Source: Phycisphaerales bacterium (GTDB lineage Bacteria; Planctomycetota; Phycisphaerae; Phycisphaerales; UBA1924). From it: a stretch of 37,708 bases of DNA. The translations under genes were made by a program, and so were the position numbers. Position 1 is the first letter of the stretch; every line of letters begins with the position of its first letter. Below the pieces are notes generated by a model. It made no database searches and was not told where the DNA came from. It was given only the letters and a program-made list of their open reading frames with translations. Positions 1,597 through 37,708 of this stretch are shown here, in pieces. The DNA is taken from positions 1 to 37,708 of the forward strand of contig JAPKGU010000014.1 in assembly GCA_026647565.1 (NCBI GenBank). The letters run 5' to 3'.

Positions 1597-4242
1597 ATGC
1601 TGAATACTCGAGAACTCCTTGCCATTGCGGTGCTGTCGGGAGCGATGTCAACGGCTCAAACGACAGCGCTCGCTCAGGGTGACCTTCACGAACCCTTGAT
1701 CTCCACGTCGTTCGAGACGCGCGATGGTTCCTTCGACCGGAGCGTGTGTGAACCGCAGTGGCACTCGTGGGGCGGGGTGCCAGGGCTAGGCGCGTCAATT
1801 GATACCGTGGTTATTTGGGACTCGGATGGAGACGGTCCAGCAGTCAAAGAGTTGATTGCGGCCGGAGACTTCCCTGGTTACGCGGGCGAACGATACAACC
1901 GATTGGCACGATGGAATGGAATCAACTGGGAACCATTTGGGGCTGCTGCAAACGGAAGTCCATCCAGCTCGTTCGTTTCGTTGTTCGTGTGGCATGAAAA
2001 TGGAAACAGCTCAGCGCCCTCTCAACTGGTTGCAACCGGAGATTTTACAAAGCTGGGCAGCACAGTCGTCAATCGGATTGCGCGATGGGATGGGACTGCG
2101 TGGCATCCTTTGGGTTCTGGATTCACCTCGATCCCCCGCGATATGTGTCTTTGGGACTCTGATGGTCCAGGACCTCTTCCGATGCAGCTCACTGTCGTAG
2201 TTGGTTCGGGGGCCAGGCGTTGGGATGGTGCCGCGTGGCAACTTATTGGTGAGGGCGTCTCACTCCCCGGTGGTGTCCCGAGTCTTGACGCGATCACGAC
2301 CTGGGATCCCGATGGGGATGGTCCACAACCACCAACGCTTGTTGTGGCCGGTAAGTTCAGCGCGGCTGGAACAGTTGCGGCCAGCAACATCGCCATCTGG
2401 AACGGAACGCAATGGGAACCGCTCGGCGCTGGTACAGGAGATCAAGTGTGGGATCTGGCAACTTGGGATCAGGATGGCGAGGGGCCGTCGGGTCCGCTGT
2501 TGATCGCGTGTGGCGCGTTCACGACTGCCGGCGGTGTTTCCGCTCGACGCATCGCGAGTTGGGATGGAAGTCAATGGAGTCCGCTCAGCACGGGCTTCAA
2601 CGGCTGGACGGTGTCTTTGGCGACTTGGGATCCGGACGGAGACGGTCCGCAGACAGACCAACTCATTGCCGGTGGAAGTTTCAGTACAGCTGGCGGCGTG
2701 CCAGCACCCAACATCGCAAGGTGGGATGGCGTGCAATGGACATCGCTTGGACCCGGATTGTCGGGGAGTCAGGTGAAGGAGATTGTGGGATGGGACATGG
2801 ATCAGGACACCTCCACACCCGATCAACTCGTAGCGAGTGGGGGCGGACTCGCCGGCGACGTTGATGTGGATGAAGTAGCCCGCTGGGATGGGTCCAAATG
2901 GCATCCATTTGGGCTGGGCTTATCCAATGGCGTGAGAGCTTTGATTGAATGGGATCCAGAATCGGCACATGGCGAAAGGAGGGTCGCCGCAGGCGGTTTC
3001 TTTCGTAGCGCGGGTGGGGTGGCTGTGAACAAAGTCGCTGCGTGGCTTTCCCGTGAGTGGCAATCGATGGCCGGAGGGGCGCCCTCGGGATCCGTCAGCG
3101 CGCTCATCGAATGGGATCCGGACGGCGAGGGCCCGATGATGACACGTCTCATTGCAGCCGGGTCGTTCACGTCGATTGGAGGGCAAGCGCATAACCGAAT
3201 CTCCCAATGGGATGGAGCGCATTGGTACGGACTGGGTTCTGGAGCAAGCTCTTCTGTCGCCTGTCTCGGTTTATGGGATCCCGATGGTCATGGCCCTCTT
3301 TCACAGGCTCTGATAGCTGGCGGCAACTTCGCTCACATCGGTGGCGTCACTGTGAATCGCGTAGGTGCTTGGAACGGGACCGTCTGGCAATCTCTGGGGG
3401 GGGGAGTGTTCGGTGGAGATGTTCAGTCTGTCACAAGCTGGGACTTGGACGGACCCGGACCCGCCTCTCCTCACCTGGTGGTCGCGGGTTACATCACCGG
3501 CACGGGCAATGGTCTCGCGAAGTTCATTGCTTCCTGGAATGGAGAGCAATGGATGGCGCTCGGCTCCGGCACCAACTCGTCTGTGAACGCGGTCATCTCC
3601 TGGGATCCGGATCAAGAGGGGCCGGAGACGCCGCTCCTTATCGCGGGCGGCAGATTCACGACGGCCGGAGGGACTCCCGCCAACTACATCGCTCGCTGGG
3701 ATGGTTCAAACTGGCTGCCGATGGGAACGGGATTCAACGGCGTTGTGGAGGCGTTGGCGATCTGGGATCCCGATGGCGATGGGTCGCAGTCTCATCAACT
3801 GATCGCCGCGGGCGCCTTCACGTCGGCTGGAGCAACGCAAGTCTCTCGCATCGCGCGATGGAATGGATCTGAATGGCTTCCTTTGGGGGACGGGCTCAAC
3901 GAAACAGTCTATGCCATGGCGTCGTGGGATCCCGATGGTGATGGGCCCATGCCCACACGTCTGGTCGTTGGTGGAGATTTCACTGTCGCAGCCGGCATTC
4001 CTGCCGGATACATCGCATGGTGGGGGTGCCCGGTCCCGCCGCCTTGTCCCGCCGATGTCAACGCAGACACACTGGTGGACATCCTTGACTTTCTCGACTT
4101 CATCGACGCATTCGGCGCCTGCAATGGGCAGCCCGCGCCATGCGGTGGATCGGCCGGGACCGCAGCCGATTACAACGCCGACACGCTCGTAGATATCCTC
4201 GACTTCCTCGACTTTCTTGACAACTTCGGCAACGGCTGCTGA
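1597..4242 (+). CDS. Secreted repeat protein with dockerin-like C-terminal tail, 881 aa
   Basis: The protein has a signal peptide (about residues 1-26, cleavage after ALA). About 14 repeats of 50-60 residues follow, each built on the pattern WDPDGDGP...LIAGG-F-T-AGG...IARWDG--W-PLG-G. The WDPDGDGP segment resembles a calcium-binding loop, and the repeats look like blades or strands of a propeller-like or solenoid surface protein. The last 65 residues hold two copies of A-D-x-NADTLVDILDFLDF, the dockerin-like, EF-hand-type tail common on secreted proteins of Phycisphaerae. The ligand is unknown. An A-rich stretch (AAAGAAAGA) precedes the ATG in place of a strong ribosome site. The gene is visibly less G+C-rich than its neighbours, and G9 occurs at 3396-3404 inside it. 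It is convergent with the amylase gene. Confidence 0.85.
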   Translation: MLNTRELLAIAVLSGAMSTAQTTALAQGDLHEPLISTSFETRDGSFDRSVCEPQWHSWGGVPGLGASIDTVVIWDSDGDGPAVKELIAAGDFPGYAGERYNRLARWNGINWEPFGAAANGSPSSSFVSLFVWHENGNSSAPSQLVATGDFTKLGSTVVNRIARWDGTAWHPLGSGFTSIPRDMCLWDSDGPGPLPMQLTVVVGSGARRWDGAAWQLIGEGVSLPGGVPSLDAITTWDPDGDGPQPPTLVVAGKFSAAGTVAASNIAIWNGTQWEPLGAGTGDQVWDLATWDQDGEGPSGPLLIACGAFTTAGGVSARRIASWDGSQWSPLSTGFNGWTVSLATWDPDGDGPQTDQLIAGGSFSTAGGVPAPNIARWDGVQWTSLGPGLSGSQVKEIVGWDMDQDTSTPDQLVASGGGLAGDVDVDEVARWDGSKWHPFGLGLSNGVRALIEWDPESAHGERRVAAGGFFRSAGGVAVNKVAAWLSREWQSMAGGAPSGSVSALIEWDPDGEGPMMTRLIAAGSFTSIGGQAHNRISQWDGAHWYGLGSGASSSVACLGLWDPDGHGPLSQALIAGGNFAHIGGVTVNRVGAWNGTVWQSLGGGVFGGDVQSVTSWDLDGPGPASPHLVVAGYITGTGNGLAKFIASWNGEQWMALGSGTNSSVNAVISWDPDQEGPETPLLIAGGRFTTAGGTPANYIARWDGSNWLPMGTGFNGVVEALAIWDPDGDGSQSHQLIAAGAFTSAGATQVSRIARWNGSEWLPLGDGLNETVYAMASWDPDGDGPMPTRLVVGGDFTVAAGIPAGYIAWWGCPVPPPCPADVNADTLVDILDFLDFIDAFGACNGQPAPCGGSAGTAADYNADTLVDILDFLDFLDNFGNGC

Positions 4243-9549: not shown

Positions 9550-10641
9550 TCAGAGTTCGGCGAGGCGGCGGGCGGTTTCCTGCTCGAGGAGCGCGCTGAA
9601 CATCGGTGCCAGATCGCCCGCGAGGATGTCGCGGAGCTGGAGCTTCTCGTCGAGGCGCTGGTCGGCGACGATGCCCTCCTGGTAGCGGTACGTGCGGATC
9701 TTCTCCGACCGCTCGCCGGTGCCGATCTGGCTGTTGCGTGCTGCGGTGCGCTCCGCCTGCTTTTTCTGACGCTCCAACTCGTGGACGCGCGCGATCAACA
9801 GCCGCCTGGCTCGCTCACGATTCTGCTGGAGCGACTTGGACTCCTGCATTCGGACCTCGATGCCGGTTGGATTGTGGACCAGATGGCACGCGGTGGTGAC
9901 CTTGTTGACGTTCTGGCCGCCGGGCCCCTGCGCCGTCGTGAGGTGCTCCGTCACGTCCTTCTCCCAGTCGATCCTGACGTCGACCTCCTCCGGCTCGGGA
10001 AGGACGGCGACGGTGGCCGTTGAGGTGTGAATGCGACCCTGGGTCTCCGTCGCGGGCACACGCTTGACGGAGTGGACGCCGGCCTCGAAGGACATCTCGG
10101 ACCAGACACCCTCACCCCGAACGTTGATCACGGCGTGCCGCACGCCCCCCACCGTCGGCTCGGGCGTCAGCTCCATCGTTTCGGACTGCCACCCTCGCTT
10201 CGACGCGTATCGTGCGTACATCTCCATGAGGTCGCGGCACCAGAGCGTCGCCTCGTCGCCGCCCGTGCCGGCTCGAAGCTCCAGGATGATCGATCCCACG
10301 CGTCGATCGTCGGTCGTCACGAGCGAGCTCTTCACCTCGGCGAGCAGCGACGCCGACTCCGATTCCAGACGCGGAATCTCCTCCCTCGCAATCGGTCCGA
10401 GCTCGGGATCCGCAAGGATCGCTCGAAGCTCGGCCTGCTCCGAGGCGAGTCGCTTCAGCCGGCGCCAGCCGTCAACAACCGGCTGACTGGCCGCGCGTCG
10501 GATGGACAGGTCACGGACCCTCCTGTGATCGGCGAGGACGGCCGGTTCCAAGAGGTCCGCCTCGATGCGGGCGTGCTGATTCTCCAGCTCGTCGAGCTTT
10601 GCGCGAACGGTCTCGGGGAGCGTGAGGAGTGGGTCGGGCAT
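9550..10641 (-). CDS. prfA: Peptide chain release factor 1, 363 aa
   Basis: RF1 recognises UAA and UAG stop codons on the ribosome and triggers peptide release. The stop-codon-reading tripeptide PAT is at residues 196-198 in the context RVPATETQGRIHTS, which distinguishes it from RF2 (SPF). The catalytic GGQ is at 241-243 within AQGPGGQNVNKV. The N-terminal coiled region and total length match the usual 355-365 residues. The ATG at 10641 gives the expected N-terminus (MPDPLLTLPE); a TTG at 10689 would add 16 residues and is unlikely. No clear ribosome site is visible. The methyltransferase prmC, often next to prfA, is absent here. The gene is divergent from the ABC exporter. Confidence 0.96.
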   Translation of the reverse strand: MPDPLLTLPETVRAKLDELENQHARIEADLLEPAVLADHRRVRDLSIRRAASQPVVDGWRRLKRLASEQAELRAILADPELGPIAREEIPRLESESASLLAEVKSSLVTTDDRRVGSIILELRAGTGGDEATLWCRDLMEMYARYASKRGWQSETMELTPEPTVGGVRHAVINVRGEGVWSEMSFEAGVHSVKRVPATETQGRIHTSTATVAVLPEPEEVDVRIDWEKDVTEHLTTAQGPGGQNVNKVTTACHLVHNPTGIEVRMQESKSLQQNRERARRLLIARVHELERQKKQAERTAARNSQIGTGERSEKIRTYRYQEGIVADQRLDEKLQLRDILAGDLAPMFSALLEQETARRLAEL

Positions 10642-35553: not shown

Positions 35554-36231
35554 TCAGATCGCGCCGGCCGCCGCCGCCGCGTCGACCATCCGCCGCTCCC
35601 GCCGCCTGTGCTTGTAGATCAGCCGGATGTTCCGCGCGTAGATCACCAGGCCCGACGTCTGGCCGATCACGCCGACGATGTCCTGCCTCCACACGAAGTA
35701 CGCAAAGAGCATCACGCCCCCGATCAGACTCATCCACCAGAACGCCTCCGGAACCGTGCTCCTCCGCTCCTTCTCAGAGACGAACCACTGCACGAGCATC
35801 CGGCCCGAGAACGCGATCTGGCCACCGAAGCCGATCACGACCCACACCAGCGAGCTCCAGGACGTGATGCGGAACAACTGGAACAGCGCGTTCTGCTCCG
35901 TCGAGATCGCGTCGTGATAGACCCGGTCGCCGAACGTCGCTCGGAACGAAGAGGCGTCCATGACCGGCGAGGCGTGGACCTCCTTCGACGCCCGGACGCG
36001 TGTGAGCACGCGGAAGGTCGGCTCGTTCGTCTGCGGATCGACCACAACCTCGACCCGGCCCTTCGAGTGCACCGCCTGGAACTCGTGGAGCGTCGCGCCC
36101 GGACGCATCACCGCCGAGAAGTTCCCCATCCCGGGCCCGATCACCAGCGCCGCGCCGACAAGGAACACGGCCACCATCGCCGCCGCCGGCTCCCACTTGA
36201 TCCTCCCCCGAGGCCGTGTCGTGCCGCTCAT
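35554..36231 (-). CDS. Membrane protein with lipid A biosynthesis N-terminal (LAB_N) domain, 225 aa
   Basis: One hydrophobic segment lies near residues 15-33, followed by a polar domain. A C-terminal block of three helices carries the LAB_N signature: SLVWVVIGFGGQIAFSGRML followed by VQWFVSEKERRS, then PEAFWWMSLIGGVMLFAYF and RQDIVGVIGQTSGLVIYARN. LAB_N proteins are small membrane proteins commonly coded beside polyprenyl-phosphate-type glycosyltransferases, and here the GT2 gene directly precedes it with a 4-bp overlap. A role in sugar transfer at the membrane is likely; lipid A itself is not shown. ATG 36231 is inside the GT2 gene's end. Confidence 0.88.
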   Translation of the reverse strand: MSGTTRPRGRIKWEPAAAMVAVFLVGAALVIGPGMGNFSAVMRPGATLHEFQAVHSKGRVEVVVDPQTNEPTFRVLTRVRASKEVHASPVMDASSFRATFGDRVYHDAISTEQNALFQLFRITSWSSLVWVVIGFGGQIAFSGRMLVQWFVSEKERRSTVPEAFWWMSLIGGVMLFAYFVWRQDIVGVIGQTSGLVIYARNIRLIYKHRRRERRMVDAAAAAGAI

Positions 36232-37073
36232 CTCCTGGCCCCGCCGATCTGGAGCTCAGCCGCGGCGGACACCGGTTCACGCGATTCGCCCCGAACCTCC
36301 CGGCACGTCACCGGCCGGCGCCGGCTCCGCATCCATCGCACCGCCAGCAGGTCAAGCAGGCCCGGTATCGCACGCTTGGTGATCCCCATGCCGTACTTGG
36401 TCTCTCCCGCGACCCGCGCCCGGTGATTCACACGCATCTCCACCACGCGATATCCGAGATGACGCGCCGTCGCCGGGATGAACCGGTGCACACCCTTGAA
36501 CTCCAGAGGCAGCGCCAGCGCGATCTCACGCCTCATCACCCGCAGCGAACACCCCGTGTCGCGGATCGTGTCGCCCAGCAGCCAAAGCCGGGTCTTCCGG
36601 CCGACGACGCTCCCCCACCTCCGGACGACATTGTCCTTCCGCGCGTGCGAGCGGTCCCCCTGCACCATGTCCGCTCCCTGCCCGCGCAGGAACTCCAGCA
36701 TCGCCGGAAGGTCGGCCGGATCATTCTGCAGATCCGCGTCCAGCACGGCGATCAGCTCCCCACGCGCCGCGCGAAAGCCCGCGTGAAACGCCGCCGACTG
36801 CCCGTTCCCCTTCCCCGGCGGCGTATTCGTCATCGCCACGCAACGAAGATGCGGGCGAGTCGCCATGGCGCCCACCAGCCGCTCACGAGTCCGATCCGTC
36901 GATCCATCGTCCACGATGACGATCTCGTACGCGATCCCGCGCCCCGCGAGCGCTCCATCGATCTGCTCCACCAGCGGGAGAATGTTCTCCTCCTCGTTGT
37001 GGGCGGGAGCAACGACCGAAAGATCGAGAAGACCAGAGTTGTTCGGGGCCTGAAAGGCCTCCTGTGATGCCAT
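36228..37073 (-). CDS. DPM1-like family 2 glycosyltransferase, 281 aa
   Basis: The protein is expected to transfer a sugar from a nucleotide sugar to polyprenyl phosphate. SVVAPAHNEEENILPLVEQI opens the GT-A fold. VIVDDGSTDRTRE, the DADLQNDP (metal-binding DxD type) segment and GCSLRVMRREIALAL are family landmarks. The last 60 residues are basic and hold no transmembrane pair, so this is the short, soluble or peripheral form. ATG 37073 was chosen over a TTG at 37082, with no clear ribosome site for either. It is 33 bp downstream of the RF3-like fragment and overlaps the LAB_N gene by 4 bp. Confidence 0.92.
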   Translation of the reverse strand: MASQEAFQAPNNSGLLDLSVVAPAHNEEENILPLVEQIDGALAGRGIAYEIVIVDDGSTDRTRERLVGAMATRPHLRCVAMTNTPPGKGNGQSAAFHAGFRAARGELIAVLDADLQNDPADLPAMLEFLRGQGADMVQGDRSHARKDNVVRRWGSVVGRKTRLWLLGDTIRDTGCSLRVMRREIALALPLEFKGVHRFIPATARHLGYRVVEMRVNHRARVAGETKYGMGITKRAIPGLLDLLAVRWMRSRRRPVTCREVRGESREPVSAAAELQIGGARR

Positions 37074-37106
37074 GGACCACAAGGGTAGGGCCGAGCCGGG
37101 GCGGGA

Positions 37107-37708
37107 TCAGGCCTCTGGCGTGCCGGTGGCGACTGGCGGGCGCGTGCCGATCGGAACCGGCCACAGCTCAATCGTCGCGTTTCGCTGCGTGAACACCCGC
37201 ATCGCCCACTCATCCGTGAACAAAGCCACACCCCTGCCGCGATCATCGAACGCAAGCAACGCCCCGTCCAGCGTCTCCGGGAGCGCCAGGTTCTCATCGT
37301 CGGACGTCGGCGCCGGCTGCCCCTTTACACGCCACCAGCGGACCTGCGTCCACTTGGCGCTCTCCAGCACCGCCTCGGCCCCGTACTCGCCCTCGAGCCG
37401 GTGCTTGAGCACCTCGAACTGGAGCGGGCCGACCGCCGCGAGCAGCACCGAACTCTGCGTTCCACCGCCCGAGCCGACGGACGTGAATCGCCGCGCAACG
37501 CCCTCGCGCAGCAACTGGTCCAGCCCGAGCCGGAACTTCTTGAAGTTTGCGGGCTGGGGGTTGCGAAGGTACGCGAAGCACTCCGGCGTGAACTCCGGAA
37601 TCTCGTCATAGACGATGCTGCGGTCGTCCGTGATGATGTTGATGACGCCGCACATCGCGTTGGCGCCCCAGCTCACGCCCGCCGGCCCGCGAATCACCTC
37701 GATCCGCT
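37107..37708 (-). CDS. prfC: RF3 C-terminal part fused in frame to a TonB plug fragment (partial, chimeric)
   Basis: From about residue 27 the chain matches the C-terminal domain of peptide chain release factor 3: DDRSIVYDEIPEFTPE, FRLGLDQLLREGVARRF, AAVGPLQFEVLKHRLEGEYG and AEAVLESAKW. The GTPase domain (roughly 380 residues) is missing. Instead, the first residues at the window edge (RIEVIRGPAGVSWGANA, GVINIIT) are the plug-domain signature of TonB-dependent outer-membrane receptors. The two pieces meet in frame around 37629, at an ITDDR sequence both families can supply. A cytosolic GTPase tail on a receptor plug is not plausible, so this is more likely an assembly chimera than a real protein. 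The reading continues beyond the window. Confidence 0.85.
   Translation of the reverse strand, partial: RIEVIRGPAGVSWGANAMCGVINIITDDRSIVYDEIPEFTPECFAYLRNPQPANFKKFRLGLDQLLREGVARRFTSVGSGGGTQSSVLLAAVGPLQFEVLKHRLEGEYGAEAVLESAKWTQVRWWRVKGQPAPTSDDENLALPETLDGALLAFDDRGRGVALFTDEWAMRVFTQRNATIELWPVPIGTRPPVATGTPEA

Follow-up and report, generated by a model that had tools for sequence, protein, structure and literature searches.

An open frame across two unrelated genes at a contig end

The analysed stretch of DNA (37,708 nucleotides, hereafter the window) constituted the entire contig C46 of genome G000, the assembly of which comprises 265 contigs and 3.94 Mb (completeness 89.2%, contamination 1.3%). 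At the upper end of the window, a minus-strand frame (37706-37107) of 199 amino acids, lacking a start and running off the contig end, was open across a join located at about 37628/37629. The frame consisted of 26 residues of a TonB plug (RIEVIRGPAGVSWGANAMCGVINIIT), followed in frame by 173 residues of peptide chain release factor 3 (RF3; DDRSIVYDEIPEFTPECFAYLRNP...). Downstream of the RF3 part came a glycosyltransferase gene, which is the usual downstream neighbour of the RF3 gene (prfC) in relatives, and next a gene with a lipid A biosynthesis domain (Table 1). No repeat common to the tip and the window was found that could explain the join, the longest shared word being 12 bases.

Table 1. 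Coordinates of features at the end of contig C46 and of a second contig tip in the same genome
Feature	Position	Strand	Evidence
Putative foreign tip, partial TonB-dependent receptor plug (RIEVIRGPAGVSWGANAMCGVINIIT)	37629..37708	-	80 bases; NCBIfam TonB models only
Junction zone, ATC ACG / GAC	37626..37634	-	prfC of nine relatives and TonB homologues compared
prfC (RF3), C-terminal third, DDRSIVYDEIPEF to stop	37107..37628	-	NF001964 383-522, E 1.5e-25
Family 2 glycosyltransferase	36228..37082	-	PF00535, E 1.5e-27; DNA collinear with G001, G002 and G003
Protein with lipid A biosynthesis N-terminal domain	35554..36231	-	PF07578, E 1.4e-28; collinear
Putative chimeric tip of C124	L135, about 2464-3207 of 3207 (also L122, L127)		~744 bases of Opitutaceae-like TonB receptor

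Searching the two parts of the frame separately gave matches far beyond chance to two different families, receptors only and RF3 only, respectively. For the 26-residue part, the best match was NF053590 (E 2.2e-9), and 14 NCBIfam receptor models in all matched it, always at one position of the plug, while the Pfam Plug model (PF07715) reached an E value of only 0.12 because of the shortness of the stretch. The likeness to TonB-dependent receptors comprised these 26 residues with the motif IEVIRGP..WGANA..GVINIIT; only the plug-end piece was present, without the remainder of the plug, the barrel or a signal peptide, and the codons that came after it were those of RF3. The 173-residue part aligned with profile positions 383-522 of the 529 in NF001964 (see also TIGR00503), and the C-terminal domain of RF3 was present in the frame (RF3_C, PF16658, E 6.6e-31). 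Relative to known prfC genes, the piece was truncated at a DDR motif, and the codons before it were unrelated. The original prediction, that the last 80 bases of the minus strand encode a TonB plug which continues without a stop into the C-terminal domain of RF3, was thereby borne out.

The remainder of prfC and its arrangement in relatives

The N-terminal GTPase domain of RF3 was absent from the C46 frame, and it had been proposed that prfC, were the fusion real, would have lost this domain. This was contradicted by an RF3 profile search of the same genome, in which residues 2-274, including the GTPase domain, were located at C254:4-822 (minus strand) in a piece that ran off the first base of that contig. 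The native continuation of the broken gene was thus present in the assembly, but on another contig, and no second prfC was found in G000. The stretches homologous to C254 and to C46 were direct neighbours, in matching order and orientation, in each of the three same-genus genomes (G001, G002 and G003). In G002, homology to C46 ended at 10239 (corresponding to 37631 of C46) and homology to C254 began at 10549 (base 1 of C254), leaving 309 bases between the two stretches. About 310 bases (~103 codons) of prfC were accordingly missing between C254 and C46, and the ~100 middle residues of RF3 were on no contig found. Since the two contigs are neighbours in relatives and ~103 codons are lacking between them, prfC, as judged from the contig sequences, is split by an assembly gap, with no sign of loss of the GTPase domain, and the organism most likely carries an ordinary full-length RF3 gene.

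RF3 was encoded by a single uninterrupted frame of 564-617 amino acids in each of the three same-genus genomes, to which the RF3 part of C46 was 71-72% identical. These alignments began at query residue 14, within the plug part; our reading is that a Gly-Val and a Thr common to both sequences let them extend by chance. At the position of INIITDDR in the contig, nine relatives from the genus and family have GDTL[TA][DE]DR, and TonB homologues have INIITKK and similar sequences. The exact junction base is ambiguous because the Thr codon can come from both parents. The suggestion that the whole Ile-Thr-Asp-Asp-Arg stretch could be supplied by either parent therefore held in part, for Thr, the RF3 relatives having Leu-Thr/Ala-Asp/Glu-Asp-Arg and the TonB homologues Ile-Thr-Lys.

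Source of the plug sequence

Neither a second copy of the plug nor another receptor with the plug was found in G000, and no TonB plug match was obtained in the three same-genus genomes. Of 392 planctomycete genomes, 171 had plugs that matched the 26 residues, the best match excluding the window itself being 85% (in several distant planctomycetes); verrucomicrobia gave matches as well. In these other genomes, the plug sat within receptor frames of about 600-800 amino acids. Both parent genes were thus separate and intact elsewhere, RF3 in G001-G003 and the receptors in other genomes. No donor genome was identified for the 80 bases: the 26 residues, with matches of at most 85% in many planctomycetes and verrucomicrobia, are too generic to name a source, and judging by these matches the tip may have originated within the phylum.

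A second contig tip of the same kind

The plug search of G000 also brought up the end of contig C124, where, within a frame of 438 amino acids, ~248 residues of a TonB receptor led directly into the C-terminal part of DnaX (Table 1). The three same-genus genomes matched only residues 249-423 of this frame, inside dnaX, a gene that is essential in well-studied bacteria. If the join is an assembly artefact, the N-terminal half of dnaX is expected to run over the end of another contig; it was found at C74:12-1007 on the minus strand, cut by the start of that contig, with similarity to relatives extending to the first bases of C74. The three same-genus genomes contained neither a plug-RF3 nor a receptor-dnaX fusion. 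Receptors of two receptor-rich genomes (62 and 32 matches), one of which is labelled Opitutaceae, were 46-47% identical to the receptor part of C124, and nothing matched that part in the four planctomycete genomes of the same search. This pattern of matches, of Opitutaceae type and to none of the planctomycete genomes searched, points to another community member as the source of the receptor sequence, at least on C124.

In dnaX itself, a run of seven A is closely followed by a stop (GGAAAAAAACGCTAG in G002, L137:1514-1528; GCAAAAAAACGGTAA in G000, on C124 near the junction), and past the run and the stop the C-terminal part is open in another frame. From its sequence, this arrangement resembles the programmed frameshift known to produce the gamma and tau subunits.

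Origin of the join

The join between the TonB plug and RF3 is very probably an assembly artefact at the contig end, given the intact prfC of relatives, the presence of the missing half on C254 and the second tip on C124. The foreign-looking part amounts to 80 bases at the extreme end of the contig, which is shorter than a usual short read and compatible with the contribution of one such read, and an open frame across the join would be expected in one third of random joins between two open frames. Sequence coverage most likely failed inside prfC, so that the assembly broke there, with the N-terminal half of the gene terminating C254 and the C-terminal third terminating C46; the C46 end would then have gained 80 bases of an unrelated TonB-receptor gene, probably from another community member. 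We infer that the join was made by a chimeric read or by a graph error (a false edge) and not by the cell, and that the tip derives from another organism. In spike-in work, organisms of low to intermediate coverage were more often built into chimeric contigs (PMC7881036). C46 resembles such metagenome contigs in its foreign-looking end, in the fragmented assembly and in that the gene is intact in relatives, but differs in that its putative chimera is judged here from the assembled sequence and not from reads.

A true fusion gene, in which a genomic rearrangement joined the plug in frame to the C-terminal domain of RF3, would agree with the open frame and is compatible with the window sequence taken alone. 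It is nevertheless extremely unlikely, as both contigs end within one prfC at complementary places and with conserved gene order on either side, no same-genus relative has a counterpart, the product would combine a barrel-less plug with only a third of a factor that acts in the cytosol, and a comparable tip occurs at dnaX in the same assembly. RF3 is dispensable in some bacteria, and prfC could have been interrupted in some of the cells by a real insertion or rearrangement bringing in a segment that carries a TonB receptor gene, with the assembly breaking at the resulting branch, since a true branch point would likewise stop an assembler. However, C254 lacks the other side of an insertion, its homology to prfC reaching base 1; moreover, ~310 bases of prfC are missing, compared with none lost in a simple insertion, and the genome holds no other matching receptor, which makes this explanation very unlikely. 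A real rearrangement in the lineage that either fused the plug with the C-terminal part of RF3 or placed a receptor gene inside prfC is likewise very unlikely.

The plug-RF3 fusion is thus almost certainly not a real feature, to judge from the sequence comparisons, and the original view of a functionally senseless fusion at a chimeric contig end agrees with the intact prfC of relatives, which show no such fusion, with the half on C254 in conserved order and with the second tip. At least two contig tips of G000 have a housekeeping gene joined in frame to receptor sequence of foreign appearance, a number that came from a search selecting for plugs and does not represent an assembly-wide rate. 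Automatic annotation would list each of the two tips as a fusion protein, in both cases falsely, and would wrongly record RF3 as having lost its GTPase domain; the join matters only as a warning to trim or verify contig ends in such assemblies before reporting fusions.

Composition and the opposite contig end

GC content was considered as a marker of foreign origin and set aside, the tip (67.5%) and the RF3 part (67.7%) showing no contrast. The opposite end of the contig (window 3-98) carries a 7-base tandem repeat, TTTGCCA, in 13.7 copies, a type of place at which assemblies often break.
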